Shown here in pieces: positions 2,235 to 22,111 of a stretch of DNA of 64,000 nucleotides. This DNA is from Clostridium sp. AM58-1XD. Its GTDB lineage: Bacteria; Bacillota; Clostridia; Lachnospirales; Lachnospiraceae. The notes under the pieces were generated by a model that ran no database searches, was not told the origin of the DNA, and saw nothing but the letters and a program-made list of their open reading frames with translations. The DNA lies in the NCBI RefSeq assembly GCF_003464085.1, contig NZ_QSDR01000015.1, positions 52,730 through 116,729 of the forward strand. The letters run 5' to 3'. The position numbers and the translations under genes were made by a program. How positions within the stretch are numbered: the first letter of the stretch is position 1; every line of letters begins with the position of its first letter.

Positions 2235-3740
2235 CTATCCCCGCAGTTCTTCGTCCGTCAGGTTTCGTCCCAGCTTCTGGTAATAACCTCTTATGGCACC
2301 TTTTAGATGCCTGCCGCCTATGGCATTTCCCTCTTCCACCGCCAGATATGCCGCATTCATGATAATCTCCCGTATTCCGCTTCCCGGTATCTCAAATTTT
2401 TCTCCCAGAAAATCAGTCGGCAGACCTTCTTCAATTGGCGCCTCTTTCGGAAACATGGACTTCCACATGATTTTTCTCATGGCGGGGTTCGGAAACGGAA
2501 AACGGACCATAAAGCGGATTCTTCTCTTAAACGCGTCATCCATGTTGTTGATATAATTGGTTGCCAAAATCGATACTCCTTCATAGTCCTCAAAACGTTG
2601 CAGAAGATAGCCGGTCTCCATATTCGCATACCGGTCGTTGGACGTGGTCACGGAAGAACGCTTTGCAAACAGTCCATCGGCTTCGTCGAAAAAGAGCACG
2701 GCATTCTTTCCCTCTGCTTCATGGAAAAGAGAGGATATATTCTTTTCCGTCTCCCCGATATATTTACTGACAATCCTGGAAATATCGATCCGGTACAAAG
2801 GCAGCCCTAGCTCCCTGGCGATCACCTGTGCAGCCATTGTCTTTCCTGTTCCGGGAGGGCCAAAGAAGACTGCCGAAATTCCGTTTCCATAAGGCGACTT
2901 CTTGCCAAAGCCCCACTCTTCACGCACCTTTTTTCTATTTTTTATCTGTGCGCACATATGCCTCATCTGGTCTTTCTGTTCTTCCTCCAAAATCAGATCG
3001 TCCCAGACGTAGCTGCATTTTATCCGGGTAGTCAGGCGCCCCAGTTCTCCCTCTCCGTCTTCCGCCTCCCGTTCCCCCTTTATATAGGAAAAAACATTCT
3101 CTCTGACTGCCAGTACAGCCGACAGCCGTGATTCTTTCCGCTCTCTCTCTTCCGTTTGATCCAGGAGTTCCCATACGCGGCTTTTTTCCGAAAGCCACAG
3201 TTCGCCGCCATAGTCCTCAAACAGGCTGAAAAGTGCCAGTCCCAGGCCTTCTGTCGGCAGTTTTGCCGCTACATTATCCTGAAGATATCCATAGAGACGC
3301 TCATATTTTCTGTCTAAATCGCTACAGAGGGCAACGAAAAACACGATCTGCTCCAATGTATTCAATTCTCTGTCACGTATGAGCCTCCACACCCGGATAT
3401 CCCGGTCTGATTCGATCGAGCAGCCGGCTCTTTTCCGGATATGATTGAGAGCGTATGACAGTTCCTGTTTCTGTCCGTCCCTAATTTCCTTCATCCTGAA
3501 TTCCCGCTCTTTCAGAGCAGAAAGCCTTCGTTCCGTAAGAGCTGCTCCGCACTCCTGCGGTGTGATGACAATGCCCCTCATGTCCAGCCGTTCGTTATTT
3601 GCGTCTTTCCAGTAAAATGCATGTTCCAGACACAGATCCACCATAGACATAATTTCTTCCAGTGCTTCTCTTTCGCAGCAGTATGGCTGAACCGCCTGTT
3701 CTTCATGAAAATAGTCTGCGTATTGTCCCAAATATTCCAT
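2235..3740 (-). CDS. AAA+ ATPase of the contractile injection system (Afp15/Pvc15-like)
   Basis: A 501-residue protein with a C-terminal AAA+ domain. Walker A GPPGTGKT lies near residue 292 and Walker B LFFDEAD near 350. A sensor-1 Asn follows (ATNYINN), then an arginine-rich stretch suitable for an arginine finger. The roughly 250-residue N-terminal part is helical and not recognisable. In Afp/PVC clusters an ATPase of this type is encoded near the end of the operon and is needed for particle assembly. Here it is the last gene of the operon. The start at 3740 is preceded by AGAGG and lies 16 bases after the preceding stop; a longer frame would overlap that gene and has no ribosome site. Confidence 0.85.
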   Translation of the reverse strand: MEYLGQYADYFHEEQAVQPYCCEREALEEIMSMVDLCLEHAFYWKDANNERLDMRGIVITPQECGAALTERRLSALKEREFRMKEIRDGQKQELSYALNHIRKRAGCSIESDRDIRVWRLIRDRELNTLEQIVFFVALCSDLDRKYERLYGYLQDNVAAKLPTEGLGLALFSLFEDYGGELWLSEKSRVWELLDQTEERERKESRLSAVLAVRENVFSYIKGEREAEDGEGELGRLTTRIKCSYVWDDLILEEEQKDQMRHMCAQIKNRKKVREEWGFGKKSPYGNGISAVFFGPPGTGKTMAAQVIARELGLPLYRIDISRIVSKYIGETEKNISSLFHEAEGKNAVLFFDEADGLFAKRSSVTTSNDRYANMETGYLLQRFEDYEGVSILATNYINNMDDAFKRRIRFMVRFPFPNPAMRKIMWKSMFPKEAPIEEGLPTDFLGEKFEIPGSGIREIIMNAAYLAVEEGNAIGGRHLKGAIRGYYQKLGRNLTDEELRG

Positions 3741-3756
3741 ATTCGTTCCTCTGCCC

Positions 3757-6450
3757 TTAATATCTCTCCAGGAAAATGTTCCTTTCTTCCCCGCCGTTCT
3801 GACAGTACCTGTCACACCGGTATGCATAAGACCGGGCTGCCAGATCGTTTTTGCTCTGTCTTAAAACTGCTGCAAATTTCTGTCTTGCTTCATAATAGCG
3901 GCCGGACAGGAAGTCAGACAGAGCTTTTTCAAACAGCTCTGACGTTTCTTCTTTTTCCCGTCTTCCAGGAAGTCCTTCTCCGTCATAGACATCATAAACC
4001 GGCTCCATCCGGTCTTCTTTTTCAATATACACATAGCCCAGCAGCCGGCTGTGGTATGATGTCTTAAAATCCTCCACCTGCTCCGCCAGCGTTCCGGTAA
4101 CGAGAATCTGCGCCCCATATTTTTTTCCAGTCTCCTGAAGGAATTCATTCAGTGAACCCAGTCTGGAAATCGTAGCCACTGCCGTCCTCTGCACCTCCCC
4201 AACGATGCCCACACGAATCTGTCCATAAGACAGAGCCGCACGGCAGTTTCCCCTGTTTTTTTCACAGGCCAGGATCGCGGCATCCAGCGCATTTTTTCCG
4301 CCGTTTTCAAAAAAGGCCGTAATTTCATCTTCTGTAATCTGATCGACGACACCGTTCTTTTCGTTGACAAACGGAATTGTCTGGCGCAGAAACTGATTCA
4401 TTCCGTCATAGATTTCCTGCCCGTCCGCTTTGTGCGTCATCGTTCGAAATCCGCTGTTTTTCATGACTGCAACCGCTGCGGTAAGACTTTTCTGATCTCC
4501 AAGCTGCACGTCGATAATCGTCTTTCTGTTTAAAATCCGAAAAATCTGTTCCGGAACAAACTTTTCATATCCGTCCGCACATTGCTGAATCCAATCCATC
4601 TGTTCTTTTAACCGTTCCGACATCTCATTGAACGCAGCTGTTACACCGGCAATTTCATCATGACCGCAGACTTTCAGCGTCACCCCTAGATTTCCCTCGG
4701 TCATGCTGGATACGGCCCGTTTCAGACGTCCCAGAGGCCGCAGGAAAATAACGAGCAGCAATACGGAAACACCGGCTAACACTGCCATGATGATCCCGAT
4801 CATCAGGTGCACCATCTTCATCTGCTGCTCCATCTGATACAGCACCATTCCAAGGCTCATGCCGCTTTCCATTACGCCCAGCACATGGCTGCTGCTGTCC
4901 TCAATCGGAATGTAGATGACCAGCCAGTTCCCTTCCTGGTCATTATACTCCGCCTGTATCAGCTTTTTTTCTTCCATGGCCTTTTTCATCAGCTCCATCT
5001 GCTGCCGGTCGCGGTAATAGTCCACACGCGCGCCATAATAGCAATCGTCTGCCACAACGTAGCGAAGATTTCCTTCACGCTGCAGGTAAATCCACTGATA
5101 AGATTTTACCGTAATAATATTTTCTTTTCCGCTTTCTCCATCGATTACCGTTCTAAGCGCCTCTTTGGAATTTACGTCCTGCTCCCCGACCGCTCCCAAT
5201 ACCCTTTTATATTCACTTCCGTCTGGAATATCCGTCAGCAGAATGTCGTTCAGGCTGTCCACATCTGCGCTCTTCATTTCAGCTTCTCCAATCATATAGA
5301 GAAGATTATAATCCGAATACACCATCTTTTTTCTGATTCCTTCTTCAATTCTCTGGCTCAGAAAAAAACTTGCCGCAAAAATAGCAGGCAAAAGGATTCC
5401 AAGAAGTTTGACAATAACCGGCATCATATGCATATATCCATAAAAAAACCACATTCCAAAAGCCACGACTGCCTCTGCTGATGCAGCCGCCAGAACAAAC
5501 AGGATTCCGTCAGCAGCCAGAAGACGTACGGACTTATTCAGCGTTTTCCTCAAAAGCAGGCATTGTCCGTTCTCATCAAACCACCCGAATACGCGGTGGT
5601 TTCCATCCATATCGACGCCCGCTGTAAAGCGGCCATACTCATCATACTGAAGCGGCAGGACATCACTGTACTCCAGTCCCTCTGCCGGAATGTCTATATG
5701 ATCCGTATCAAACAGCTTCTTCTCTTCTTCTGTTTCCGTATTCACCATCCAGACGCCGCCGTCGGAAATATCTGTAAAGATGATCTGCCTGTCGCCGAGA
5801 GAAATATGGGCATGGTCATTTTTATCCTCTTCCGTTTCCCACACGTATTCTGTGTCTTCATATATTTTTCCATGATAATCGGTTACAAACAGGATGTCAT
5901 TTGTCAAATCATAATGGACGTCCCTGACATTTCCATATGGTATTGGAATATCCCTTACCTTCACCACAGTTCCGTTCTGGTCCTGACAATAGAATGACGC
6001 CGCCCCTTCGTCCTCAGCGGCATAGTACAGATGTCCGTCCTGTACCTGTACTTTCATCATTTTCTGTTCCGGAAGCGTCCATACCCGCACGAGCTTTCCG
6101 CTGTCAAAATCACATCGGTAAACTGCAGAATCCACAGCCTTGTCTTCCATGGATACGCGGTATCCATATACATACACGCCTCCTTTGGAATCTGATGTCA
6201 GACTGTAATAACTGCTCCACCATTCTCCGTCCAGTTTCTTTTCCCGAATAGAAGCCATTATGGTCCCGCTTTCATCAATATGAAAAAAGTCAAAGTTCTC
6301 CCCTTCATTATCAATTAAATAGAAGCCATCCTCTGCTTTCAGAGCATCGCTGACTCCCTTCAGTGTATACAGACGGTTATGCCACATACCGGCTGCTCCG
6401 GCCAGCAGTGCAAGCATAATCCCTAAAATTCCAGTTATCCAACGCTTCAT
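3757..6450 (-). CDS. Membrane sensor with HAMP and degenerate class III cyclase domain
   Basis: An 897-residue membrane protein. A signal-anchor helix at residues 1-22 precedes a beta-rich region (about 25-310) with repeated strand pairs that could form a propeller. Two or three membrane helices follow at about 313-367, then a second extracytoplasmic sensor region. Next come a membrane helix at about 543-568, a HAMP domain, and a region resembling adenylate/guanylate cyclase catalytic domains (about 640-830). The first metal-binding aspartate expected in the FxDIxGFT motif is replaced (AVMKNSGFRTMT), while the second acidic motif is partly kept (QITEDEITAFFE). It may be a catalytically dead binding or signalling domain. 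The C-terminus looks TPR-like. It lies 12 bases after the PAAR gene, inside the CIS operon. Confidence 0.7.
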   Translation of the reverse strand: MKRWITGILGIMLALLAGAAGMWHNRLYTLKGVSDALKAEDGFYLIDNEGENFDFFHIDESGTIMASIREKKLDGEWWSSYYSLTSDSKGGVYVYGYRVSMEDKAVDSAVYRCDFDSGKLVRVWTLPEQKMMKVQVQDGHLYYAAEDEGAASFYCQDQNGTVVKVRDIPIPYGNVRDVHYDLTNDILFVTDYHGKIYEDTEYVWETEEDKNDHAHISLGDRQIIFTDISDGGVWMVNTETEEEKKLFDTDHIDIPAEGLEYSDVLPLQYDEYGRFTAGVDMDGNHRVFGWFDENGQCLLLRKTLNKSVRLLAADGILFVLAAASAEAVVAFGMWFFYGYMHMMPVIVKLLGILLPAIFAASFFLSQRIEEGIRKKMVYSDYNLLYMIGEAEMKSADVDSLNDILLTDIPDGSEYKRVLGAVGEQDVNSKEALRTVIDGESGKENIITVKSYQWIYLQREGNLRYVVADDCYYGARVDYYRDRQQMELMKKAMEEKKLIQAEYNDQEGNWLVIYIPIEDSSSHVLGVMESGMSLGMVLYQMEQQMKMVHLMIGIIMAVLAGVSVLLLVIFLRPLGRLKRAVSSMTEGNLGVTLKVCGHDEIAGVTAAFNEMSERLKEQMDWIQQCADGYEKFVPEQIFRILNRKTIIDVQLGDQKSLTAAVAVMKNSGFRTMTHKADGQEIYDGMNQFLRQTIPFVNEKNGVVDQITEDEITAFFENGGKNALDAAILACEKNRGNCRAALSYGQIRVGIVGEVQRTAVATISRLGSLNEFLQETGKKYGAQILVTGTLAEQVEDFKTSYHSRLLGYVYIEKEDRMEPVYDVYDGEGLPGRREKEETSELFEKALSDFLSGRYYEARQKFAAVLRQSKNDLAARSYAYRCDRYCQNGGEERNIFLERY

Positions 6451-6462
6451 GAAATCCCTTCT

Positions 6463-6843
6463 CTATTTGACCTGAATATTCTTTACTCCCGGTTCCTGTA
6501 CCTGAATTGTGCCTCCCCAGGCGCACTTAGTCTTAGAATCTCCTGTTGCGGCCGGTTTCCCTCCGATCATCACATGTTTGCTGCCCGGCGACCACGGTTT
6601 GATCGTTACGGGAACGCACGGTGCCTTGGTACCGGCTTTAGCCGCTATTACGGCGATTACAGCCGGATTCTGTTTTGATGAACACATTACGAATGTGGGA
6701 ATATTGATGAACGGTTTCTGATCCTCTACACTGGCGACCGGAAGCCCTGCCATCACTTTTGCCGTTGGAAGCACATTCAGTACACATGGAGCGCTCCCAC
6801 AGGAGCATTTTAAAATTGAACCTGTACGCAGACAATTTGCCAT
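6463..6843 (-). CDS. PAAR-like DUF4280 protein, probable CIS spike tip
   Basis: A 126-residue protein of the DUF4280 PAAR-like family. It has early cysteines (CLRTG, CSCGSAPC), an internal IGGKPAATGDSKTKC segment, and the glycine/proline-rich turns expected of a PAAR cone. PAAR-like proteins cap the spike trimer of contractile systems and can carry effectors. There is no C-terminal toxin extension here. The start has GGGAGG seven bases upstream. It lies between an unknown protein and the cyclase-like sensor, far from the spike gene, in the same operon. Confidence 0.8.
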   Translation of the reverse strand: MANCLRTGSILKCSCGSAPCVLNVLPTAKVMAGLPVASVEDQKPFINIPTFVMCSSKQNPAVIAVIAAKAGTKAPCVPVTIKPWSPGSKHVMIGGKPAATGDSKTKCAWGGTIQVQEPGVKNIQVK

Positions 6844-6902
6844 CGTTTACCTCCCTGTCAGCAGGACCATTGTATGCGCCGCAAAGCCATGCGATGATCC
6901 GG

Positions 6903-7598
6903 TTATTCCATTTCATATATCAATTTATTTGATAAATTCCGCGGAATGAGATAAGCTCCATCTCCATCCACAGCCGTATGGTAAACGAACCTGCATACGG
7001 CTCTGTCCGCCATATAGTTTACCGACAGCTGTTTCCTTAATTGAAAGCGTCTGATTATAGTACCGTCTGAACGCCTTTTTTCATCCGCATATCCTGAATT
7101 GCCCATGAGAAATACAGCTTCTCCTTTTCCATCTGCCTCAATCCATAAGACATCCGGCCATATTTCCAGCCCCCTGGTAAAAACGAGGCTGATGTACGGC
7201 TCTTCTTTTGTTCCTGATTCCGTACGGCAGTCTTCTGCCAGCCATATATTTCCCTCCGTCCCTTCCAGTGGGAGAACGATATCTTCACCGGGTACGCCCG
7301 CTTTTTCTGTCAGAGACATGTCACATTCAGACGGATAAGGGTACTTTGTATTGGGAACCATCCAGATTCTCTGCAATCCGCCCACCGGTACCGGGAATTC
7401 CTGTTCCTGTTTGAAAAAGAAGGGGCTCTCCACAAGAATTTTTCCGGCAGCCTCCCGGCTTTCCCAAAAGATCCAGACCGCCCCCTTTTTCCTTACCGGC
7501 ACCCGGTTATCACATGATGTTACGATAGAAGGGAGCTCCACCGGCTTCATGGTGAATCCGTCAATCAGCTGTACTGCTGTTCCAACTTTTCTGCGCAT
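6903..7598 (-). CDS. Unknown protein of the CIS operon
   Basis: A 231-residue protein I do not recognise. Predicted strands dominate, and there is no signal peptide or membrane helix. The first 75 residues (FTMKPVELPS, WIFWESREAAG, FPVPVGG) look like a small beta-sandwich, possibly of the carboxypeptidase-regulatory or Ig-like kind. The ribosome site AAAGG lies six bases before the ATG. Its place between the DUF4255 cap gene and the PAAR tip gene, with gaps of 34 and 59 bases, argues for a structural or cargo-related role in the injection system. This is inference from position only. Confidence 0.6.
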   Translation of the reverse strand: MRRKVGTAVQLIDGFTMKPVELPSIVTSCDNRVPVRKKGAVWIFWESREAAGKILVESPFFFKQEQEFPVPVGGLQRIWMVPNTKYPYPSECDMSLTEKAGVPGEDIVLPLEGTEGNIWLAEDCRTESGTKEEPYISLVFTRGLEIWPDVLWIEADGKGEAVFLMGNSGYADEKRRSDGTIIRRFQLRKQLSVNYMADRAVCRFVYHTAVDGDGAYLIPRNLSNKLIYEME

Positions 7599-7632
7599 AT
7601 GGTTCCTTTCTCTTTCTACGATGCCCTGTTCT

Positions 7633-8265
7633 TTATTTGAATTCCGGATTGATGTCGATCTCTGTCACGCGCGTAATCTTCCGGCGCGTTTCATTTTCAA
7701 GGCGGACCGGCGATACGCGGTAAAACAGGGAAAGACGATACGATTCCCCGGCCTGCCCCCACATCTTCAGTTTATCATCGATATTCACTCTCAGCGGTTC
7801 AATATGAATTGCCATCGGGTCCGCCTTTTCTGCCGGCCTCAGCGTGCTTTCATCCAATATACAGTAATCACGAAAAATCTCCATAACCTTCATAAGAATC
7901 TTCTGTTCCTCTTCCGCCCGATACTGGATATCCACCTTGGAATAGGCAGCAATCATATAGTAGAGATCCAGATATGTAGGAGGAAACTGTAGTTCCTTTT
8001 CTCCCATACGCATCTGATAATCAGACACGCGGTCACTTTCCTGTACATCATACATCCAGATCATCAGCGACAGATCCCCCCTCTCAGACGGACTGCATAT
8101 ACCCACTTCTTCAAGGCCGGGCAGTATGGAAGGAACCATATGGTCCTGAAGCAGGCTTACCAGAGCTCTGCTCACCGCAGGCACAGCCATATAAGGAGAG
8201 AGCTTTGGAAGCGGCGTCTGGGCCCCTTCTTTTTTCTTCATCCACCATGGAACTTTCATCTCCAT
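7633..8265 (-). CDS. DUF4255 tail terminator/cap protein (Afp16/Pvc16-like)
   Basis: A 210-residue protein of the DUF4255 family. In Afp and PVC this family forms the cap that ends the sheath-tube polymer and sets particle length. The central segment (SLMIWMYDVQESD, then FPPTYLDLYYMIAAYS) matches the family pattern of an N-terminal helix, a short basic loop and a LDLYYLITAYS-like strand. I chose the ATG at 8265 because GGGAGG lies six bases upstream; an ATG 24 bases earlier has no site. It follows the MORN protein by 43 bases. Confidence 0.85.
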   Translation of the reverse strand: MEMKVPWWMKKKEGAQTPLPKLSPYMAVPAVSRALVSLLQDHMVPSILPGLEEVGICSPSERGDLSLMIWMYDVQESDRVSDYQMRMGEKELQFPPTYLDLYYMIAAYSKVDIQYRAEEEQKILMKVMEIFRDYCILDESTLRPAEKADPMAIHIEPLRVNIDDKLKMWGQAGESYRLSLFYRVSPVRLENETRRKITRVTEIDINPEFK

Positions 8266-8308
8266 CTTTTTCCTCCCCGTGATGTCCATTTTGAGCTGCT
8301 TATATAAA

Positions 8309-10186
8309 TCAATACGTCAGATATGCTCCCGGACCGACTTCATCTGCAGGTACGTCTGAAGCTCCTTCTCTTCCCTCTGACTGCCTGCTCTCGTTCTTAT
8401 CATCCTCTCCCTGCTGCACTTGGGAGCCGCCCTTTTCATCCTCTGTCATGTCATCTTCGGAAGCTTCTCTCTGACCGTCCTCTGCTTCGTATTCCTCCTC
8501 GCCGATGTCTTCCGTACCGCTTTCTCCCTGGTTGTCTTCTTCTCCGCTTTCCTCTGCCGGCACTTCCTCGTCCTCTCCTGTAATTTCTTTCAGACGCTTG
8601 TCACGTTCTGCCTTTGCGGCTTCAATCTCCTCAATTGTAGCCGCCAGCTGGCCGCCGCGGAAATTTCCTTCCACGATTACAAGGCCTGTCGCCGTATCAT
8701 AGTACGTACCTGTTCCATGGTACACACCAAGCCTGAATTCTCCCTCGTACCGCAGGGATTCCTTCTCATCGTATTCTTTCCCCGCACCATCATATTTCCC
8801 GCTGCGGAAATTGCCTTCATACTGCAGAAATCCTGTATCTGGATTATATTTTTTTCCCTCTCCTTCGTACAGCCCTTTTACGAAGCTTCCTTCGTAGACC
8901 AGCATTCCTTTTCCAGGGGCGTACTGCTTCCCCTCTCCGTCATAAAGGCCGTTTTTCAATTCCCCATCGTAGATCATCTCTCCGTTCCAATACACACAGC
9001 CTTCTCCGTCATACATGCCGTGGGAAAGCGTTCCGTCATACAGAATTTGTCCCGTCTCATCATACGCAATACCGCTTCCCTCCTCTTTTCCCATGGAAAA
9101 TGTCCCCTGAAAGCTGATCTGTCCGTTCGGATAATAACGTGTTCCGCTGCCCTCATACAGCCCGTCCTGGTATGTGCCTTCATAAATAAGACGGCCGTCC
9201 TGATCCCACTCAGTCCCGAATCCCGTTTTTTTTCCATCCTCCAAAATCCCCGCAAAGACTGTGTTCTCTCCATCCTCAGAAAGCAGCCTCACTTTTCCGC
9301 TGTATCCTAAAGTCTCCGCTGATCGGTCCGCCATCTCTTTTACAAGATACCTGGACTGAATTACAGGAAACACAGTTTTTCTCCACAGAATCGGCGCAAA
9401 AATGATACAGAGTAAAATCAGACACGCGGCAGCCAGCAGCCTTGCGCAGAGTATCAGCTCCTTTTTATGCTGTTTCACCCAGTCTTTAAAGGTACGATCC
9501 TCTTTCTTTTCCTCCTGCACAGCTTCTTCTTTTTCTCTTTCCTCCATAACTGCCGGAAGCAGGCCGACATACTCCTGGTACAGAAGAATCGCCTCGTTGC
9601 CCCCGCCTGCCCCTTCCTGAGCCAGGTACTCTGAAAGGTACGCCTCTATTTCCGGGTAAAGTCCATCCGCTCTTTCCTGTGAAAACAGTGTTTCCAGAAG
9701 CTCTTTCCATGCTTCCCTCAATGTTTTTCCGGAGCTGTCCCATGGCATTCTGTAGTCCAAAAAAACTTCATTATATTCATCTATTTTAATCCGTGTAATG
9801 TCCAGCAGGTCCGCCATATGCTTTTCAGGTATCTGGTAAGCCAGACAGCGTTCCAGCGCCTTTCCGGCTGCGTCGTATCGTTCCCTCCGCCCCATACCGT
9901 GTTCCATAAGGCTGGACAGCCTTTCTCCCGGGTGAGATTGAAACACAAGTATCATCCTGTTTTCTTCCTGAATCGCTTCCTCAAAATCAGAAAATACCGT
10001 ATTCCTTTCTAGCTCCATGACAACAGGAATTAATTCCGGAATCCTGTTCCTTTCCTGCGCTGCAGCGATATCATACAGTTCGGATGAATCCTCCCCGTCT
10101 CTGTATGCCTGGTAATACACCCATCCATTCTTCCCGGCCTGCTCTTCAATTGTCTCATATCGATGTTTTATGCTCTGTATTATCAC
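8309..10186 (-). CDS. Membrane-anchored MORN-repeat protein of the CIS operon
   Basis: A 625-residue protein with three parts. Residues 1-230 are soluble and weakly resemble a degenerate protein-kinase fold (a YxxxEEQAxKNGWVYYQAY start, a later KIDEYNEVFLDYRMPW segment) without catalytic residues. A single membrane helix lies at about 244-267. About nine MORN-like repeats (YEGxxxxGxYEGxGxxY pattern) span about 315-515, followed by a highly acidic Glu/Asp/Ser tail. MORN repeats typically bind lipids or proteins near membranes. The N-terminus is probably cytoplasmic and the MORN array outside, because KHKKE flanks the helix on its N-terminal side. The start is GTG with GGGGG nine bases upstream. 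Such a protein is not a standard Afp/PVC component. Confidence 0.75.
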   Translation of the reverse strand: MIIQSIKHRYETIEEQAGKNGWVYYQAYRDGEDSSELYDIAAAQERNRIPELIPVVMELERNTVFSDFEEAIQEENRMILVFQSHPGERLSSLMEHGMGRRERYDAAGKALERCLAYQIPEKHMADLLDITRIKIDEYNEVFLDYRMPWDSSGKTLREAWKELLETLFSQERADGLYPEIEAYLSEYLAQEGAGGGNEAILLYQEYVGLLPAVMEEREKEEAVQEEKKEDRTFKDWVKQHKKELILCARLLAAACLILLCIIFAPILWRKTVFPVIQSRYLVKEMADRSAETLGYSGKVRLLSEDGENTVFAGILEDGKKTGFGTEWDQDGRLIYEGTYQDGLYEGSGTRYYPNGQISFQGTFSMGKEEGSGIAYDETGQILYDGTLSHGMYDGEGCVYWNGEMIYDGELKNGLYDGEGKQYAPGKGMLVYEGSFVKGLYEGEGKKYNPDTGFLQYEGNFRSGKYDGAGKEYDEKESLRYEGEFRLGVYHGTGTYYDTATGLVIVEGNFRGGQLAATIEEIEAAKAERDKRLKEITGEDEEVPAEESGEEDNQGESGTEDIGEEEYEAEDGQREASEDDMTEDEKGGSQVQQGEDDKNESRQSEGREGASDVPADEVGPGAYLTY

Positions 10187-10201
10187 GGATTACTGCCCCC
10201 A

Positions 10202-12581: not shown

Positions 12582-12585
12582 AAGT

Positions 12586-14463: not shown

Positions 14464-14491
14464 TGCCTTCACTCCTGCCCAGCATAGTCTT

Positions 14492-15949
14492 CTATATCGT
14501 CACATGTATTTCGTGTTTTCCGCTTATTGGCAAAATCCACGGGATTGCCGCAGCCTCCCTGATATCAATTTCTTCCTGCCCGTATCCCCGGTCCAAAAAG
14601 GCTGCAATCCTCATCCTTTTTACGTAGCTGATCCCTGGAATTCTCTGTATTTCCTGTCTGATCTGGCTGTATCCCGGAATTTGACCGATCTTCCATCCCG
14701 ACCCGTCTTTTCCGCCCGTAACGGGATCCAGATAAGAGGCCAGCCGCTTCTCAGCCAGGTCAGCCAGCTCCATTCCCCTGCTGAAATCCGCTGCTGCCAG
14801 ATCTGCCTGTATATCAAGCCTTACTCGCCATGCAGCCGTCAAATGAAGCCGCGGATCCTTCCGTTTATCGTATATCTGTTTTGCCCATTTATGGTAACAG
14901 CAGTGCCCTTCCTCCTCATCTGGAATAAAGAACGCCACCAAAATCTCTCCATCTGCCTTCTTCCCCTCTTCTCCATAGCCGGGAAAGCATCTGATCTTTT
15001 CAATATTTCTGAATTCACTCTTTATAACAGCTTCATAGTCGGCAGGTGTTACCGTTTTTTCCTGATGGCGCACTGTCTGCATCTGCCTCTTTCTTTTCTG
15101 TTCTGCCGTTTCACCTTCAATACCGCCGAAACATCCCTCCGGATTCCGTATCTTTGAGACGAATCCGGCGCTTTTTTCCAGCTTCCATTTTCCTCCGGAA
15201 GCTGTATTTGCGTCTTCTCCAGTTTTCTCTGCCCTTATCCCGCCTCCATTGGCAAAAACTGCAAAATAAGTTCCATCTGTTCCATCTTCCGCTGTAATGC
15301 TGATTCTGTATTCCTTCCCCGCTTTACACGGAATTTCTTCCCAATCCCTGTAAGCCGGAAAGCATACAAGCCCGCTGTGCATAAGATTTTCCGTACCATC
15401 AATCACATTCATCGGCTCCCAGCCATTCCTTCCCAGAAACTTCCACCCGTACGTTTTCTTCCTCTCTCTGCTTTGCGTCTCAATCATAAGAAACAGGTTC
15501 ACCGCCTGGCTCGGCCTCTTTCCCTCCAGCAGGATTTCCCAGCCTTCGCTGCTGCGCACGGTCTCTTTCACCCGCCACGGTGCTGCCTGGACATGCTCCT
15601 GAAGCAGATAACTCACCCGTTTTCCATTCTCACATTCCTTCATGACTCTGCTGCCTGCCAAAATCCATGCCTCATCCATTTCCATACTCGCCAGTTCAAA
15701 CACGAGATATCCTTCTGCACATCTCCCTTCCGTACACTCTGAACCCAGCAGGAAAAACAGATTGTCCCTGCGTTTCTTCAGGAATTCATCCCATTTTTCC
15801 TCATTTCCTTCCATTAATTCCAGAAACAGTTCCGCTGCCGCCGTACCTAAATCAGGGGCGTCGGGACTGTATTTCCATTCCGGCACATAGGAATCGGCCA
15901 GTTCCTTTAATCTCTCTGTATAACAGCTCCCGCCATCCGGCCCTTTCAC
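14492..15949 (-). CDS. Baseplate J-like protein, small (Afp11-like)
   Basis: A 485-residue baseplate wedge protein. It begins with a short helical segment (YTERLKELADSYVPEW, then SPDAPDLGTAAAELFLELME) equivalent to the N-terminus of the larger J-like protein that follows. It ends with gpJ-like elements (VTPADYEAVIKSEF, IQRIPGISYVKRM). Afp11 and Afp12 homologues form the heterotrimeric wedge of the baseplate. The predicted start is GTG 15949, with an AAGGAAGG ribosome site about eight bases upstream. The 54-base gap to the gp25 gene is one of the larger spacings in the operon. Confidence 0.8.
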   Translation of the reverse strand: MKGPDGGSCYTERLKELADSYVPEWKYSPDAPDLGTAAAELFLELMEGNEEKWDEFLKKRRDNLFFLLGSECTEGRCAEGYLVFELASMEMDEAWILAGSRVMKECENGKRVSYLLQEHVQAAPWRVKETVRSSEGWEILLEGKRPSQAVNLFLMIETQSRERKKTYGWKFLGRNGWEPMNVIDGTENLMHSGLVCFPAYRDWEEIPCKAGKEYRISITAEDGTDGTYFAVFANGGGIRAEKTGEDANTASGGKWKLEKSAGFVSKIRNPEGCFGGIEGETAEQKRKRQMQTVRHQEKTVTPADYEAVIKSEFRNIEKIRCFPGYGEEGKKADGEILVAFFIPDEEEGHCCYHKWAKQIYDKRKDPRLHLTAAWRVRLDIQADLAAADFSRGMELADLAEKRLASYLDPVTGGKDGSGWKIGQIPGYSQIRQEIQRIPGISYVKRMRIAAFLDRGYGQEEIDIREAAAIPWILPISGKHEIHVTI

Positions 15950-16003
15950 GGCTTCACCTTCCTTCTGCTGCCCATTTCTCTTCGGCTCCTTCCCTTACAT
16001 GGT

Positions 16004-16417
16004 CTAATACCGGAGTCCCTCTTCCAGATAGAATGGGTATACCAGGTTATATGGATTGTTTGTCGAACGCACCACGTAATTGATCTCTACCTGCACGCAG
16101 CGATCCGCTTCCTTTCGTCCCGGCGTTTTCACGCGGACTTCAATATCCCGAATTCGCGGTTCCCATAAAATGAGCGCTTCTTTTACCGCTGCCTCCATCT
16201 CGCTTCTTACACGAAAGTCCGGAATTTCAAAGAGATATTCGTAAATACGGCAGCCGAATTCCGGACGCATAACGCGTTCTCCTGGCCTGGTAGAGAGAAT
16301 AATTCCTATGGACTCTCTGATTTTATCTTCTCCGGAAGCTTCCATGATCTTTCCGCTTACACGGTCTGCCTCAATCGGAAATTCCCATCCCGTTCCCAGA
16401 AAATCATATACCCCCAT
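16004..16417 (-). CDS. Baseplate gp25/gpW-like protein (Afp9-like)
   Basis: A 137-residue protein of the gp25 lysozyme-like baseplate family. It joins sheath and baseplate and starts sheath polymerisation. The conserved core is plain: GTGWEFPIE, then ESIGIILSTRPGERVMRPEFG, the family signature including the EPR-type triad later (LILWEPRIRD). The length is normal for eCIS and T6SS TssE-type proteins. AGGAGG lies upstream of the ATG, which is 12 bases past the spike gene's stop. Confidence 0.92.
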   Translation of the reverse strand: MGVYDFLGTGWEFPIEADRVSGKIMEASGEDKIRESIGIILSTRPGERVMRPEFGCRIYEYLFEIPDFRVRSEMEAAVKEALILWEPRIRDIEVRVKTPGRKEADRCVQVEINYVVRSTNNPYNLVYPFYLEEGLRY

Positions 16418-16429
16418 ATTCCCTTCCTC

Positions 16430-17206
16430 CTAATTCAGATTCAGCATTTTGCCTTTCACATTCAAGATTCCGCCTGCTTCTACCGTCATGTTGGCGCTCG
16501 TTTTTATCTCTCCCATATCACCCGATACGGAAAGCTGTTTCCCCTTAATCTCCGTTTTCCCCGATCCTTCCATGGCGACCTGACCGCTCTTCATCTCCAG
16601 CTTTTTATCGGGGCTGATGGTGACATTGTCTCCCGTGACAGAAACATCCCCCCCTGCGATAGTGATATTGTCCTCCACCGTCACCTTTTCATTAATCACT
16701 GTTTTTCCCATAACAGTAACAAGCTCTTCTTCGACAACCACCTTTTCTTTTCCGTTGATTTTCAGAATGATTTTATTAGCCGCCTCAATCTCCAGTACCT
16801 TTTCTTCCTCCCCGTCCGTCATTGATATGATATTCGTACCGTCCGGATTGGATAGGGACAGCTTTTTCAAAGACTCGTCGATCAGAATTTTAAATCCCGC
16901 TTTTGTCTGGATCAGCTTCTTATCGTTATTCTCATCAGCCGTGTCCTCCGATATGGCATTGACCGTATGAAGCAAGCTGCCGAGAACTACCGGATTGGTT
17001 CTCTTTCCGCCCAGAAAGCCTACGATTACCTCGCTTCCGATCTCAGGGAGCATGTATACTCCATAACCCGGCCCTGCATATGGAACCGTTACAGGAATCC
17101 AGCCTGTCACCATAACGCCCTTTTCCCCAACCGGATATTCTACCTTCACTCTACCCTTGTTCTCCTCATCCCAGTTCTCCTTGACAATTGCAGCCAACAG
17201 TTCCAC
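16430..17206 (-). CDS. gpV/VgrG-type spike protein
   Basis: A 258-residue spike protein. The N-terminal OB-fold (IVKENWDEENKGRVKVEYP, then PGYGVYMLPEIGSEVIVGF) is that of phage baseplate gpV/gp5 and VgrG. From about residue 150 onward there are short regular strands (KVTVEDNITIAGGDVSV and similar, period about 8) that fit the triple beta-helix needle. It works with the gpD-like hub encoded just before it; together they equal VgrG. I prefer GTG 17206: AAAGGAG lies seven bases upstream and the start clears the preceding stop by 19 bases. An upstream ATG at 17260 would overlap the hub gene. Confidence 0.88.
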   Translation of the reverse strand: MELLAAIVKENWDEENKGRVKVEYPVGEKGVMVTGWIPVTVPYAGPGYGVYMLPEIGSEVIVGFLGGKRTNPVVLGSLLHTVNAISEDTADENNDKKLIQTKAGFKILIDESLKKLSLSNPDGTNIISMTDGEEEKVLEIEAANKIILKINGKEKVVVEEELVTVMGKTVINEKVTVEDNITIAGGDVSVTGDNVTISPDKKLEMKSGQVAMEGSGKTEIKGKQLSVSGDMGEIKTSANMTVEAGGILNVKGKMLNLN

Positions 17207-17225
17207 TGCTGTTCTCCTTTCATCT

Positions 17226-18281
17226 TTAGCCTCCCAGTTCGACCGTCGTCGTAAAGCCATTCTCTGAGTTCATCTCATGGATGACTCCCCGGATATAATA
17301 GAGGCCGTTCCATCCCGGAACCACATCGTCGATCTTCAATGTCTTTCCGATTTCCATATCCGGTAGTCCATCCGTAGTCTTCACTGTGCCTGAAACGGAC
17401 TCCCACGCTTTTCTGGCTGCCCAGGAGGCAGCTAAAGCCGTGGCCTCCTCCTGGGTTTTCATTCCGTCCGAGGCAATCGTTTCCGTCAAAGCCGAAACGG
17501 ACGAATCCAGCCGGCTGCCTTTGGCCGTCTGGCTGGCCGTCACTGCCCCGTGATCTTTGTCCATAGCCGTAATCTGTATTTTTCTGTGTAGAAATTTTTT
17601 TGTAATATTTATGGAATTAAGGCCGGCTCCCGGTTTCAGCTCCAGAATTTCAGCCTGGGAGGAGTCATGTTTCTCATAGCAGGCCTTTCCGGCGCTGATA
17701 TAGAATTCCCAGTCCGGCCGTACTTCGTCGATCAGCTGCCTCATGATAAATTCAAAATCCGACTCCCACTGATGTAGCAGACAGGCGTTAGAATCGTCTT
17801 CTCCTGAAGACGACGTACAAAGCCCGCTGTAAGGCGCCATGATTTGTGAAAATGCATCGCTGTATCCCGTACAATCCAGAATCCGTATCCGTTCTCCCGA
17901 CTCTTGCAAAAGCTTCCCTGCATCTGAGGCAGTCACCTGGAATACAAAGCCGTTTTCCTGTGTCAAAACGGCCTTTACCTCATCAGCATATCCTTTAAAT
18001 ACTGTTTTTAATGAAGAGCCATATCCCAGCTTGATTTCCACGCTGCTTCCCGGCAGCAGACCGTCCATAACCGCAGATTCTGCCGAATGATTCGTCACAT
18101 TGTAACAGCCGCCGACCGTAAAGCTTGCTTCTCCCGGACGGCCGATTCCCACCGAAGTCTTGATATCGCTTACACTGCATCCCCAGTCATCCTTCACGTC
18201 CTTACCGCCGATCAGGATGCTGCCGGCCGGAACCATAAAGCCGTCATACTTCTTGCGAAGAGACGCATACGTATCTCCCAT
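17226..18281 (-). CDS. gpD-like hub protein (Afp8 N-terminal type)
   Basis: A 351-residue protein similar to phage late control protein D, the hub that carries the spike. The features are an early ILIGGKDVKDDW segment, SVEIKLGYGSSLKTVFKGYADEV (the first beta-barrel), the FEFIMRQLIDEVRPDWEFYIS helix typical of gpD, and a C-terminal DMEIGKTLKIDDVVPGWNGLYYIRGV strand pair. In Afp8 hub and spike are fused; here they are two adjacent genes, as in P2 phage. There is a weak ribosome site before ATG 18281. Confidence 0.85.
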   Translation of the reverse strand: MGDTYASLRKKYDGFMVPAGSILIGGKDVKDDWGCSVSDIKTSVGIGRPGEASFTVGGCYNVTNHSAESAVMDGLLPGSSVEIKLGYGSSLKTVFKGYADEVKAVLTQENGFVFQVTASDAGKLLQESGERIRILDCTGYSDAFSQIMAPYSGLCTSSSGEDDSNACLLHQWESDFEFIMRQLIDEVRPDWEFYISAGKACYEKHDSSQAEILELKPGAGLNSINITKKFLHRKIQITAMDKDHGAVTASQTAKGSRLDSSVSALTETIASDGMKTQEEATALAASWAARKAWESVSGTVKTTDGLPDMEIGKTLKIDDVVPGWNGLYYIRGVIHEMNSENGFTTTVELGG

Positions 18282-18329
18282 CCGCCATTTCTCACCTGCT
18301 TTCTCTGTAATCTATCTGTCTTTCATAAA

Positions 18330-18989
18330 CTATTCCTCTTTTAGGGCCGGCACTTTCAGAACGCATCCCGGTCTTATGTCAAGAGGATTCTGTATTCCGT
18401 TCGCCTCGGCAATCAGCTTCCATTTTTCACAGTCGTCATATTCCTCATAAGCGATTTTCCACAGGCTGCTCCCTTGAATCACCGTCCTGTATTTTGTCCG
18501 GTCCGGTGAACTTTTCGGCTGAGCCTTATTGTCCGCCTCTGAAGATATGGAAGAAATCGTCAGATCTATTTTTGCCCTCAGGGGCATACCGTCGATGCCG
18601 AAATATGTAAATGTCTGGTTTAAAGAAGTTACCATTCCTTTAAAATTTAAATTTCCCCAGGAAAAGGACACGGCAGGAGGCCGGTGCTGGTCGCCGTCCA
18701 CGTCCGTCAGCTTGACGACGTCGTCCGTATATTCCGTAACCGCCTGATAATATCCTTCGCTGTCAGGAATCGACGTATCAAAATACAGGGAAAGGGAAAG
18801 TTCCCTTCCCTCCCCCTCCACATACTGCAGATCCTGCGTATTTTTTTCTTTGTCCGAATTCCTCGCGTATTTCGTCGTACATCGGATCGTATACTCCGCC
18901 GGATTAAACATACAGGTAATCGTTTTGTCCTCCGTTATTTTGTCCTTCTTGTATACGATGATCCTGGCCTTTTGAAGCTCGCCCGGCAA
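18330..18989 (-). CDS. LysM-domain tail/baseplate protein (Afp7-like)
   Basis: A 219-residue protein. An N-terminal domain (CMFNPAEYTIRCTTKYAR) typical of the contractile injection system tube-baseplate adaptors is followed at about 165-215 by a LysM domain (YRTVIQGSSLWKIAYEEY, then WKLIAEANGI and RPGCVLKVP). Afp7 and phage gp53 homologues link the tube to the hub; the LysM has a structural role rather than extracellular glycan binding. The start codon is TTG, supported by AGGAGG seven bases upstream and the absence of a better in-frame start. Confidence 0.85.
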   Translation of the reverse strand: MPGELQKARIIVYKKDKITEDKTITCMFNPAEYTIRCTTKYARNSDKEKNTQDLQYVEGEGRELSLSLYFDTSIPDSEGYYQAVTEYTDDVVKLTDVDGDQHRPPAVSFSWGNLNFKGMVTSLNQTFTYFGIDGMPLRAKIDLTISSISSEADNKAQPKSSPDRTKYRTVIQGSSLWKIAYEEYDDCEKWKLIAEANGIQNPLDIRPGCVLKVPALKEE

Positions 18990-19030
18990 AAGACCGCCTC
19001 CTCTCCGTTTCCTGCAGCGGCCAGATGACC

Positions 19031-19450
19031 TTATGAGCTTCTGGTCAGCCCGTTATGGATGATTTCAATTTTTTCAATCAATACCTCATGTCCCATGGCG
19101 TCGAGTCCACCTGTTTCTATTTTTGAAACTATGCCGTAAGGAACGGTATATGTTCTCGCTGATTCAGCGCCGTCCAGAACGATCACAATGAGATTATTCA
19201 CTTTGCTTCCCACAGACAGCTCCAGTTCTCCAAGCTCCGATTTCCCATTCCCCGTCCGGATTCCCCGTTCCAGGATCAGAACCTCCTGTTTCGACTTCTG
19301 CTTTGGAAGGAAGACGGGCCCCCAGTTTCTCCCGCCTTCCGCAATAATCTCGTATTCCTGTTCTTCCGATAATCCACTGACTCTTGCAAAGCCGTAGCTC
19401 ACGCCGTCCATCTGAACGGCAAAATCATAATTGACCGCCAGTTTTCCCAT
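19031..19450 (-). CDS. Second tube protein (Afp5-like)
   Basis: A 139-residue protein of the gp19/TIGR02241 tail tube fold: LAVNYDFAVQMDGVSYGFARVSGLSEE at the start, and a C-terminal HEVLIEKIEIIHNGL strand. It diverges from the main tube protein encoded just upstream and matches the Afp5-type tube initiator, which sits between baseplate hub and main tube. GAGG lies before the ATG. It is 15 bases from the preceding gene. Confidence 0.85.
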   Translation of the reverse strand: MGKLAVNYDFAVQMDGVSYGFARVSGLSEEQEYEIIAEGGRNWGPVFLPKQKSKQEVLILERGIRTGNGKSELGELELSVGSKVNNLIVIVLDGAESARTYTVPYGIVSKIETGGLDAMGHEVLIEKIEIIHNGLTRSS

Positions 19451-19465
19451 CCTGTCACCTCACGG

Positions 19466-19891
19466 TTACTCTACTGTCATTCCTTCGTGAACCAGCTCCA
19501 GAGATTCGATCGCAATCTCGTTCGACGTAGCGTTGAAATCCGGCGCCGTGTACTTGGTCGGCCACGCTTTCGTGATATGCCAAGCCAGCACCTTTTCATA
19601 TTTTTCATCCACAAGGGTAATCACGACTTCTTTCTGCTTAACTTCCCCTGTCAGGCCAATCACAATCCAGTCGTAAAATGCCTTTCCTGTAATCACGCCC
19701 TTCTTCAACGTCACGTTGCTGTACTTCCTCAGGCCCGCCACTTTCATGGGCGTCTCTGTCTTCATATTGCCTTCCCTGTATTCAATCGGATCGATTGACG
19801 CGTCCAGGCCGGAAACCTCCGAAAATCCGCCTGCATCTGCATTGTCGATCGTCACCTGAAAACGAAATTTTGGTTTTGGATAACCTTCCAT
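19466..19891 (-). CDS. Main inner tube protein (Afp1-like)
   Basis: A 141-residue tail tube protein of the T4 gp19/TIGR02241 family: KFRFQVTIDNADAGGFSEVS and SGLDASIDPIEYREGN at the start, LKKGVITGKAFYDWI in the centre, and a final NEIAIESLELVHEGM. These motifs are highly characteristic of eCIS tube proteins. It polymerises into the inner tube that is propelled when the sheath contracts. AGGAGG is correctly spaced before the ATG. It follows the sheath gene by 50 bases. Confidence 0.93.
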   Translation of the reverse strand: MEGYPKPKFRFQVTIDNADAGGFSEVSGLDASIDPIEYREGNMKTETPMKVAGLRKYSNVTLKKGVITGKAFYDWIVIGLTGEVKQKEVVITLVDEKYEKVLAWHITKAWPTKYTAPDFNATSNEIAIESLELVHEGMTVE

Positions 19892-19941
19892 GTTTTACCT
19901 CCTGTCTGTCATTGCCTCCCGTTTCTCTATAAGAATACCGC

Positions 19942-21675
19942 CTATTGTGCATCTCCCGTTTTCTGTGTAATGCGGAAGATTACGAACTCAGCCGGCTTCA
20001 CCGGAGCAACCCCGATAATACAGATCAGACGTCCGTTATCGATGTCGTCCTGGGACATGGTATCGCGCCCGACGTTGACGAAAAACGCCTCGTCCGTGGA
20101 TGTGCCCGCCAGTGATCCGTTCCTCCACAATGTAGTGAGGAAGAGTTCGATCGTCCGTTTGATGCGGATCCACAGCACCTCGTCATTCGGCTCAAAGACA
20201 GCCCAGTTTGTATTGGCTTTAATGGATTCCTCGATAAATATGAACAGACGGCGGACGTTGACGTATTTCCAGCTACCGTCGCTGCTGACCGTCCTGGCTC
20301 CCCATACCCTGATGCCCTGTCCCGGAAATGCACGGATCAGATTGACTCCCTTCGGATTCAGAATATCCTGTTCCCCTTTGTTAAACTGGACGTCCAGCCC
20401 TACACAGGCTCGCACTACTTCGTTGGCAGGCGCCTTATGGACGCCTCTCTGCGTATCGGAGCGGGCATAAATCCCTATAACGGACCCGGACGGCGGTATC
20501 GCAATATTCTTCCTGTCAAGAGGGTCGAATACAATGAGCCACGGATGGTAAAGAGCCGCATAGGTGGAATCGAACATGTTTCTGTGGTTTTCAATATCCT
20601 GTACTTTATGGGCGCCCTGAGGCACATCCAGCACGGCAAACCGGCTGGCCAGATTCTCACAGTGGGCTACGAGTGACAGCTGGACATTGGGGTCCGTGAC
20701 TCCTGGAACCGACATGATGGACACCACATCGTTATCTACAAATGCCTGAATTCCCGTTCTCTTTCCTGCGCCGTTGTCAACGCCTATGTAATCGGCCGGC
20801 CCCGCTGCCAGCGCATTGCCGTTGCTGCCGCCCGACAGTTCTACGGAAGCGACAGCAGCCTCTGCAGGCGCCAGCTGGGCAAACGGAGGAACGGCAGTCT
20901 CCGGCTCCGCCCCAGCTGCCTCAACAGCGATCATATCGGACTTGGCCATCTTCTTTTCCACAAAATTGGGAGCTGCGATGTTAAAGGACATGTTGTCATA
21001 ACTCTCCACGATGTCTTCATACCGTACTTCCATATTGAATTCACACGTAGTCAGAACCTTGTCCGGCAGAAGCTGCCGGTCCGTCACATCGCCCTCCAGA
21101 GGCGAATCAAATGATATGATATTGTCCTGACTCTTTGTGATTTTTCTGTATATAATATTTTCTCCGTCTGTAAACGCAGCAATATCACCGGACAGGAATC
21201 CCGAACCGTTCTTTACATTGTAGCTTGTCCCTTTTTCCGTCTCCAGTACTTCCAGAATCTGAGTCTTTGCCTTGCTCGCCGGAGTAATCAAAATTCGTAT
21301 GCTGTTTCCCCACAGGCCTGGATTTTTAGCTTTCATCGTCAGCCTGGGCGCATCCTGAAATAAAACGGCTCCTTTTGCACACGCCGCGTCTCCCGGCGCC
21401 ACTCGCATCACAAAGCACCTGGAACCGCCGTTGATGAAGAAATGCTCCACCGCATATGCCAGGAAACGATAGTCGCCGTACTCGTTCGCCGGAAGATAAC
21501 CGCCGTAGATCCGCCGGAAATCAGAAAAGTTCGTTACCAGCTGGGGAAGTCCTTCTACAGGACCTCTTTCTGCCATCCCTATGAAGCCCGCTGTGCTCGT
21601 CCCGACGCCTTCCATCGGTTTCGGTCCGGAATCAAATTCCTCCACGTATACACCAGGTGACAAATACTCTGCCAT
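19942..21675 (-). CDS. Contractile tail sheath protein
   Basis: A 577-residue sheath protein. The N-terminus (YLSPGVYVEEFDSGPKPMEG, then GVGTSTAGFIG) is the universal sheath start. The C-terminal domain with WGARTVSSDGSWKYVNVRRL, FEPNDEVLWIRIKRTIELFL and PAEFVIFRITQ is the conserved sheath core that interacts with the tube. A variable surface domain rich in alanine lies around residues 225-310. Only one sheath gene is present, while Afp has three. AGGAGG lies eight bases before the ATG. It is the second gene of the operon. Confidence 0.95.
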   Translation of the reverse strand: MAEYLSPGVYVEEFDSGPKPMEGVGTSTAGFIGMAERGPVEGLPQLVTNFSDFRRIYGGYLPANEYGDYRFLAYAVEHFFINGGSRCFVMRVAPGDAACAKGAVLFQDAPRLTMKAKNPGLWGNSIRILITPASKAKTQILEVLETEKGTSYNVKNGSGFLSGDIAAFTDGENIIYRKITKSQDNIISFDSPLEGDVTDRQLLPDKVLTTCEFNMEVRYEDIVESYDNMSFNIAAPNFVEKKMAKSDMIAVEAAGAEPETAVPPFAQLAPAEAAVASVELSGGSNGNALAAGPADYIGVDNGAGKRTGIQAFVDNDVVSIMSVPGVTDPNVQLSLVAHCENLASRFAVLDVPQGAHKVQDIENHRNMFDSTYAALYHPWLIVFDPLDRKNIAIPPSGSVIGIYARSDTQRGVHKAPANEVVRACVGLDVQFNKGEQDILNPKGVNLIRAFPGQGIRVWGARTVSSDGSWKYVNVRRLFIFIEESIKANTNWAVFEPNDEVLWIRIKRTIELFLTTLWRNGSLAGTSTDEAFFVNVGRDTMSQDDIDNGRLICIIGVAPVKPAEFVIFRITQKTGDAQ

Positions 21676-21708
21676 AATCTGTACCTCCTCTTTCGTTTTT
21701 TCTTTATA

Positions 21709-22068
21709 CTACCGGAATTTATCTGCCTCCGCTTCCAAAGCCGGATCATCATTCAACGGCATCCCTTTAATACTTCCGGTCGCTCTCACTCTTCCCTTCT
21801 TCTGCTGGACGACGTGACCCAGCTCATGGGGGATCACATGCTCCTTTCCCGGTGCCACAAAAATCTGATTTCCCTGGGTATACGCCAAAGCCTGCACCTG
21901 AGCCGGCCTGGAGGAATTCAGGTGAACACCTACATCAGCCATTGGAACACCACTCTTCTTTTCAGCTCTCTGAACCATTTCCAGGATACTCTGATTTCCT
22001 GCTGCCGCATAAGATGGACCAGACTGCTCAGCCTGCCGCTCTCTGGTGATCTCCGAATCCTTTTCCAT
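21709..22068 (-). CDS. Stand-alone DUF4157 (eCIS core) protein
   Basis: A 119-residue protein of the DUF4157 family, the domain most often linked to eCIS loci. It shows a zinc-metallopeptidase HExxH motif (IPHELGHVVQQ, about residue 80) preceded by VHLNSSRPAQVQALAYTQGN and followed by the downstream glutamate region (DPALEAEADKF). In many eCIS effectors this domain is fused to a C-terminal toxin; here nothing follows it. ATG 22068 has a strong AAAGGAGGGGGAG site. An upstream ATG in the same frame would place the start inside the leader and terminator. It is the first gene of the CIS operon. Confidence 0.88.
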   Translation of the reverse strand: MEKDSEITRERQAEQSGPSYAAAGNQSILEMVQRAEKKSGVPMADVGVHLNSSRPAQVQALAYTQGNQIFVAPGKEHVIPHELGHVVQQKKGRVRATGSIKGMPLNDDPALEAEADKFR

Positions 22069-22111
22069 AAACTCCCCCTCCTTTATCATGAAATCACTTT
22101 TTTTAGGGTAT

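Follow-up and report, generated by a model that had tools for sequence, protein, structure and literature searches.

Is the contractile injection system (CIS) encoded in this stretch of the Clostridium sp. AM58-1XD genome a free particle, or is it used from the membrane of the cell that makes it? The question is raised by the minus strand of the window, by which we mean the whole 64,000-nucleotide stretch analysed, where 18 co-oriented and intact open reading frames (ORFs) between positions 2235 and 22206 form a complete CIS gene set that includes membrane proteins. Drawing on computed gene content, predicted folds, the loss of catalytic residues, co-inheritance and the absence of a tape-slot protein from the window, and on analogy with systems described elsewhere, we propose with a probability of roughly 0.62 that this CIS would be used docked on the producer's cytoplasmic membrane, like a type VI secretion system (T6SS), with a pseudokinase-MORN protein as its hub and a HAMP receptor as its trigger.

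The candidate hub, encoded at 8309..10186, had been described as a MORN-repeat membrane protein. The membrane association and the repeats stand, but the protein is actually a fusion in which a cytoplasmic pseudokinase (residues 1-~215) is joined through one helix (residues 244-262) to MORN repeats and an acidic tail. Hydropathy and charge place the N-terminal domain in the cytoplasm, followed by a single membrane helix. The predicted model of the N-terminal part adopts a protein-kinase fold, and the N-domain of TraF is among its fold matches; the EssB/YukC structures are not among the best 50 fold matches listed, which excludes nothing. Because the sequence matches to kinases are weak, the kinase assignment rests on the predicted fold: the pseudokinase profile, compared with the sequences of solved structures, reached kinases only at E values of 0.008 and above. 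The catalytic Asp of kinases is retained in 0/21 sequences, the loop Asn in 9/21 and the DFG-position Asp in 1/21, that one being the window protein. A protein search with the N-terminal part matched only itself, and relatives were found through DNA loci and profiles.

The second membrane protein (3757..6450), previously called a cyclase-like sensor, is indeed a HAMP receptor with a class III cyclase-type domain, although the catalytic residues of the cyclase are lost. It has four helices and two extracellular domains. The cyclase homology comes from the family profile, which matches CyaB (E 1.2e-19), and from the L044 homologue, which matches PF00211; searched alone against Pfam, the window protein gave no cyclase-family match. 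The two metal-binding Asp residues are kept in 0/16 and 1/16 sequences, the transition-state Asn in 2/16 and the Arg in 0/16. As a separate observation, the receptor gene of G068 (L196) appears in several pieces of 341, 555 and 111 aa, and similar splits in L015, L019, L020 and L045 may be real splits, frameshifts or variants.

To place these proteins among their relatives, species genomes were scanned with an alignment of relatives of J2, a baseplate wedge protein; the best 80 of at least 471 confirmed loci were taken, the regions of 33 sheath-bearing genomes were read as far as their contigs reach, and 17 loci from a viral scan were set aside. In a typical Clostridia-type operon the sheath is followed by tube A, a 123-aa protein, tube B, a slot protein whose length varies, LysM adaptor, hub, spike, gp25, J1, J2, CIS12 and CIS13; next come two one-helix proteins, the first of ~300 aa and the second, with MORN repeats, of ~400-800 aa, and then cap, a protein of ~250 aa, PAAR and HAMP receptor. 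The AAA gene may lie on either side of this series. Loci with at least 4.5 kb beyond the CIS13 gene were eligible for counting. Among the 31 of 42 Clostridia-type loci that qualified, the pseudokinase was found in 26, the MORN protein in 29 and the HAMP receptor in 25; the comparison of synteny that the preliminary description had called for thus shows the membrane genes conserved with the CIS. None of the three occurred in the four eligible loci (of 14) from other phyla.

The same association appeared in 397 genomes of the family containing L014's genome. Sheath genes were detected in 22 of them at E 1e-200 and in 44 at 1e-60. The pseudokinase was present in 37/397 genomes, all of them among the 44 with a sheath and none among the 353 others (p 2.1e-45, kinship ignored). 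These 37 are the union of two profiles that detected 23 genomes each, the second of which, built from six more distant members, recovered 14 sheath genomes that the first had missed. The pseudokinase gene lay next to the CIS13 gene in 34/34 cases where a single contig showed the position of both (21 by reading the neighbourhood and 13 from coordinates, which gave gaps of 5-117 bp), a count that leaves out G377, split over contigs, as well as G006 and G090. In six genomes whose sheath is 51-55% identical, CIS13 is followed by pseudokinase, HAMP receptor and MORN in that order; the four of them read further continue with large one-helix proteins, after which cap, PAAR and sheath appear. At least one large one-helix protein with a signal-like start (~580-1240 aa) accompanies this module in each of L190-L195; these proteins may be remotely TolC-like.

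The sheath points in the same direction as the membrane genes. Among the 21 solved sheath sequences that it matched, the best was 9ezm (E 3.1e-133; solved structures only), an entry named in the paper on the T6SS of Halogeometricum borinquense (PMC11566945). Judging by the molecule name of the entry and the subject of the paper, 9ezm is the H. borinquense sheath, so that an archaeal-type T6SS provides the closest sheath kinship among solved structures. That system is reported as bound to the cytoplasmic membrane, contact-dependent and docked in the extended state; its Cis11 is nearest to Bacillota, and its authors suspect that Cis12 and Cis13, possibly via a membrane protein, form the attachment (PMC11566945). 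Membrane-linked or contact-type use had been suggested in the preliminary description, and it now has strong indirect support from the co-inherited membrane genes and the archaeal sheath match.

In reading direction, the features of the operon are as follows.

21709..22206, minus strand: small stand-alone eCIS_core protein (DUF4157-type), no toxin domain seen (PF13699, E 1.5e-9; HELGH at residue 127)
19942..21675, minus strand: sheath, Cis2 (Pfam sheath domains; best solved match 9ezm)
19466..19891, minus strand: inner tube A (gp19 family, E 5.3e-43)
19031..19450, minus strand: inner tube B (gp19 family, E 3e-13)
18990..19030, minus strand: 41-bp gap between tube B and LysM adaptor, the empty tape slot
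18330..18989, minus strand: tube-baseplate adaptor with LysM, Cis7-like (CIS_tube, E 1.7e-40; LysM, E 5.8e-5)
17226..18281, minus strand: hub (Phage_GPD, E 7.8e-5, under cut-off; gene order)
16430..17260, minus strand: spike (Phage_base_V, E 3.9e-21)
16004..16417, minus strand: gp25-like wedge protein, Cis9 (GPW_gp25, E 3.5e-25)
14492..15949, minus strand: J1 wedge protein, shortened (TIGR02243, E 1.2e-17, under cut-off)
12586..14472, minus strand: J2 wedge protein (Baseplate_J, E 6.7e-9; TIGR02243, E 2.8e-48)
11592..12581, minus strand: CIS12-family homologue, "tail protein I" (CIS12_fam, E 1e-31, under cut-off)
10202..11605, minus strand: CIS13-family homologue at the fibre position, shortened (CIS13_fam, under cut-off; model; hydropathy)
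8309..10186, minus strand: pseudokinase-helix-MORN fusion, proposed docking hub (Pfam MORN, fold model, hydropathy)
7633..8289, minus strand: cap or tail terminator, Pvc16-like (Pvc16_N, E 5.5e-27)
6903..7598, minus strand: 231-aa protein
6463..6843, minus strand: DUF4280/PAAR-like spike tip (E 3.7e-26)
3757..6450, minus strand: four-helix HAMP receptor with dead class III cyclase domain (HAMP, E 3.7e-10)
2235..3827, minus strand: AAA+ ATPase with winged-helix domain, Cis15-like (AAA, E 1.9e-27; WHD, E 1.6e-10; GPPGTGKT and VLFFDE motifs)

Domains were called on the 18 proteins with Pfam and NCBIfam using curated cut-offs. The sheath, both gp19 tubes, the CIS_tube and LysM adaptor, spike, gp25, J2, the Pvc16_N cap, the DUF4280/PAAR tip, AAA+ ATPase, HAMP, MORN and eCIS_core all scored above the Pfam cut-off, and J1 and the hub below it; of the NCBIfam matches (TIGR02243 to J1 and J2, CIS12_fam to "tail protein I"), only that to J2 passed. 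ORFs and families alike bore out the preliminary account of an intact, tightly spaced 18-gene operon with these parts, and of a locus that holds, by Pfam, no large toxin among its 18 genes. Sheath, tubes, LysM adaptor, hub and spike, gp25, J-type wedges and cap in one cluster place the locus in the CIS superfamily. Together with the AAA+ ATPase and the eCIS_core-type protein, these components recall the extracellular CIS (eCIS) of the Afp/PVC type, from which the window differs in lacking a tape-slot protein and a long fibre and in having membrane proteins in the operon. No Pfam family of the Tss-type membrane complex of canonical T6SS i-iii was found among the 18 genes.

The match to the archaeal system extends beyond the sheath. 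The first six genes, from eCIS_core to hub, are separated by 15-50 bp, which leaves no room for a plug or a tape measure among the tail genes, and the H. borinquense cluster is reported to be without cis6, cis14 and cis19, that is, plug, tape measure and crown (PMC11566945). Both have two J/Cis11-type genes, Cis12- and Cis13-type proteins, an ATPase, a cap and DUF4157-type proteins. They differ in the envelope and the domain of life of the host and in the candidate anchor, which in H. borinquense is the six-helix Hbor_38620 and in the window the pseudokinase-MORN protein with the HAMP pseudocyclase receptor.

Other systems offer parallels for the membrane proteins themselves. The intracellular CIS of Anabaena is anchored to the thylakoid through the CIS13/CIS12 side of its baseplate (PMC8894136), and in the window a membrane protein follows CIS12 and CIS13; Anabaena Cis13, however, bears a membrane helix itself, whereas the window homologue has none and separate membrane proteins follow it. 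CisA of Streptomyces is likewise a one-helix membrane protein with a cytoplasmic N-terminal part encoded right after the baseplate genes, at the fibre position, and is required for firing yet absent from purified particles (PMC12237407). Its N-terminal part is disordered and its outside domain resembles solute-binding proteins, in contrast to the folded pseudokinase, the MORN repeats and the second receptor of the window. Lastly, EssB/YukC of the type VIIb secretion system and TraF of the pIP501 type IV secretion system, in single-membrane bacteria, combine a cytoplasmic pseudokinase with one membrane helix and are assembly hubs (PMC12599244, PMC13037476). No sequence-family link to them was found; in the window the outside part consists of MORN repeats and the partner machine is a CIS.

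Because of these archaeal, Anabaena, CisA and EssB/YukC/TraF parallels, and of the position after CIS12 and CIS13, we take the pseudokinase-MORN protein to be the probable docking hub and the HAMP protein the probable receiver of the firing signal. In the arrangement that we infer, which covers docking, topology, signal flow, target, contact-dependence and length control, the CIS would sit at the inner surface of the cytoplasmic membrane, as a T6SS does. The dead kinase domain would grip the baseplate in the cytoplasm through its neighbours CIS13, CIS12 and the J proteins; the one helix would span the membrane, and the MORN rod would face the wall. The extracellular domains of the receptor would read an outside signal, and its cyclase domain, making no nucleotide, would relay the permission to fire to the hub or the baseplate. 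The sheath would be built without a slot protein, so that its length would have to be set otherwise, by the cap, the subunit supply or the width of the cell.

The same genes could also serve a free cytoplasmic or released CIS that is undocked before a signal, its membrane proteins sensing stress and acting in late recruitment, firing or lysis. The behaviour of CisA fits such a system, a HAMP receptor would suit a stress or ligand sensor, and 26/29 operons carry a slot protein, maybe a tape measure, as in freely assembled particles. We nevertheless consider it rather unlikely, as the usual Clostridia-type operon encodes three membrane proteins and not one, the pseudokinase lies beside the CIS13 gene in all 34 placements, and the closest sheath with a solved structure comes from a system that docks while extended.

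Several observations weigh against membrane docking through a dead-kinase hub. The window protein retains an Asp at the DFG-like position, and the receptor an Asp at the second metal position of the cyclase. Support for the topology of the MORN protein is weaker, with 17/27 rows favouring a cytoplasmic N-terminus, 7 ties and 3 opposed. The YukC/EssB-type Pfam family gave no match with 22 members at E values up to 10. In Bacilli, where 20 of 24 loci were eligible, the pseudokinase was absent (0/20) and MORN (9/20) and HAMP (4/20) were less frequent. Seven of the 44 sheath genomes (G020, G060, G247, G267, G356, G373 and G392) lacked a pseudokinase match; five of these also lacked a CIS13 match, and two of the five have an orphan sheath only. 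True receptor-binding fibres have also been reported for Paenibacillus eCIS.

The fibre position of the window had been overlooked in the earlier claim that the operon has no tail fibre: it is occupied by the shortened CIS13_fam homologue at 10202-11605. The profile matches residues 11-179 at E 9.4e-30 and 104 bits, against a curated cut-off of 370, and the predicted model ends in a C-terminal Ig-like fold. No membrane helix was found in it by hydropathy, and no long fibre among the 18 genes. A crown protein was considered as its identity and rejected; we claim none because both kinds of match are weak, the sequence match being 7b5h_AA at E 0.052 alone and the fold matches short or poor.

How the length of the tail might be controlled is a question posed by the tape slot. 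Tube B and LysM adaptor are both visible in 29 operons. In 26 of these a gene separates them, encoding a protein of 172-371 aa in twelve and 732-1606 aa in fourteen; the window, L014 and G397 lack it. The long proteins are mostly poor in Pro and Gly and the short ones end in a common HLE(K/R)xRRG; the short-form profile also matches some long forms (E 7e-14 to 2e-5), family links are weak, and one member gave a sub-threshold match to a Pfam tape measure. Place and make-up suggest that the slot protein is a length ruler. In the window, the tape-slot families of the relatives matched no reading frame of the 64 kb (best E 0.12), and with a gap of 41 bp the earlier statement that there is no tape measure holds here.

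A tape measure might of course be encoded elsewhere in the host genome, or be too diverged, which would be compatible with docking. The evidence on the host covers the 64-kb window only, and the slot protein differs greatly in length from operon to operon and has weak family links. Against this, all 26 operons that have a slot protein carry it in that very slot, and a search that detected it in 5/6 control genomes turned up none when run on the full L014 and G397 genomes (it missed G346, two of its matches were weak, and the controls all had the short form). We regard a distant or diverged tape measure as unlikely.

That the lack of a tape measure means membrane docking was rejected, the pseudokinase being present with and without the slot protein; with a slot protein in 26/29 operons, its absence cannot mark docking, and this part of the earlier reasoning falls. 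Homologues with tape measure and fibre, foreseen there as an argument against a membrane-linked CIS, were in part encountered (the slot protein), leaving the membrane proteins untouched. In all three slot-less loci the pseudokinase and MORN parts are fused (in L014 the contig ends inside the MORN part), and they are separate in 18/18 operons where a slot protein is present and the pseudokinase gene visible. This contrast (3/3 vs 0/18, p 7.5e-4) omits G013 and G014, where no pseudokinase was found, and operons cut by contig ends, and the sheath tree, in which L014 and G397 form one pair apart from the window, gives it two separate events only; the coupling of slot loss and fusion remains a correlation. 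The two genes are also separate in four further operons (G068, G346, G100 and G333). Between the tubes, the operons read with tube B and LysM visible (for example L138 and L134) encode the 123-aa protein, which often contains CPHCG; the window and L014 are the exceptions.

Is the window copy, then, streamlined or decaying? Compared with up to ten relatives, its sheath is 70-74% and its tube A 53-61% identical, and its hub, spike, gp25, J1, J2 and CIS12 are 24-53% identical. Blocks of 349 and 88 residues are missing from J1, 77 from J2, ~106 from CIS13 and ~93 from the AAA protein. Extra Cis11 domains build a cage in Anabaena (PMC8894136), and our guess by analogy is that the missing J1 block would be the counterpart of these domains. 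The losses of the slot protein, the 123-aa protein and the baseplate blocks could be erosion, and the sheath tree groups the window (92/90 support) with two orphan sheaths bereft of their operon. Decay is nonetheless very improbable: the 18 genes are all uninterrupted and closely spaced, the cores and ATPase motifs are retained, the sheath keeps its identity to relatives, and L014 and G397 are also slot-less yet have full-length baseplate genes where visible. The best reading is a streamlined member without a slot protein. The orphan sheaths (L155:13725-16000 in G267, with a tube gene, and L161:14270-16000 in G373) are intact, 66-68% identical to that of the window and adjoin exopolysaccharide-type genes; neither genome has a CIS13 or pseudokinase match.

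Some further features of the operon and its surroundings were recorded. The HAMP receptor and AAA genes share 71 bases; on the ATPase, PADLOC gave matches to AAA families alone, and no defence system is claimed. For the 231-aa protein neither a Pfam or NCBIfam family nor a solved relative was found, and four of its profile-matching relatives are, like the window protein, encoded between cap and PAAR. Stand-alone, toxin-free eCIS_core proteins near the sheath or AAA gene occur in the window, L014, G036, G346 and G202, an example of the small protein in a relative being at operon position 692-1243 of L138; they are perhaps loaders or proteases rather than cargo. Large proteins, of which the window has none, lie directly upstream of the sheath in L138 (operon position 1961-3844), L134 and L185; some proteins in this place start with a P-loop motif, and that of L014 looks by sequence like a SARP/BTAD-type regulator. 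A typical Clostridia-type operon in L064 (G007), titled Muribaculaceae, may be a misbinned contig or a transfer. Distant from the operon, the ORF at 54203-56425 is possibly a defence gene; its 740-aa product has AAA_21/AAA_15 domains of the OLD/AbiEii type.

As for what was already known, Bacillota are named as kin in the archaeal paper and Paenibacillus eCIS fibres are reported. Searches for CIS combined with MORN, pseudokinase or Clostridia/Lachnospiraceae/Bacillota, with subscription papers and preprints outside their scope, returned no paper on this combination, the matches for MORN being judged by title and abstract; in a term search the survey PMC12210884 mentions none of Clostridi-, Lachnospir-, Firmicutes and Bacillota, and PMC8213781 none of MORN, Clostridi- and transmembrane.

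Since there are relatives in culture (one is L003, Cuneatibacter sp. NSJ-177, from an isolate record), the questions of docking, hub and length are directly testable, and long, short and missing slot proteins beside sheaths ~70% identical form a natural series for the study of tail-length control. Tentatively, Bacillota might possess a T6SS-like machine of their own, a CIS on a hub of the EssB/YukC/TraF kind with a mechanical cyclase relay, where in slot-less lineages the fused anchor would both seed and limit the tail. Gram-negative bacteria provide the best-known docked contractile weapons, joined in 2024 by those of haloarchaea. If docking is true, a dead kinase would be the membrane hub of a third secretion machine in single-membrane bacteria, and a marker gene would predict the mode of action from sequence. 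Docked contractile weapons would then reach Lachnospiraceae-type bacteria, among the commonest groups of the animal gut, and single-membrane gut bacteria would gain a counterpart of the T6SS.
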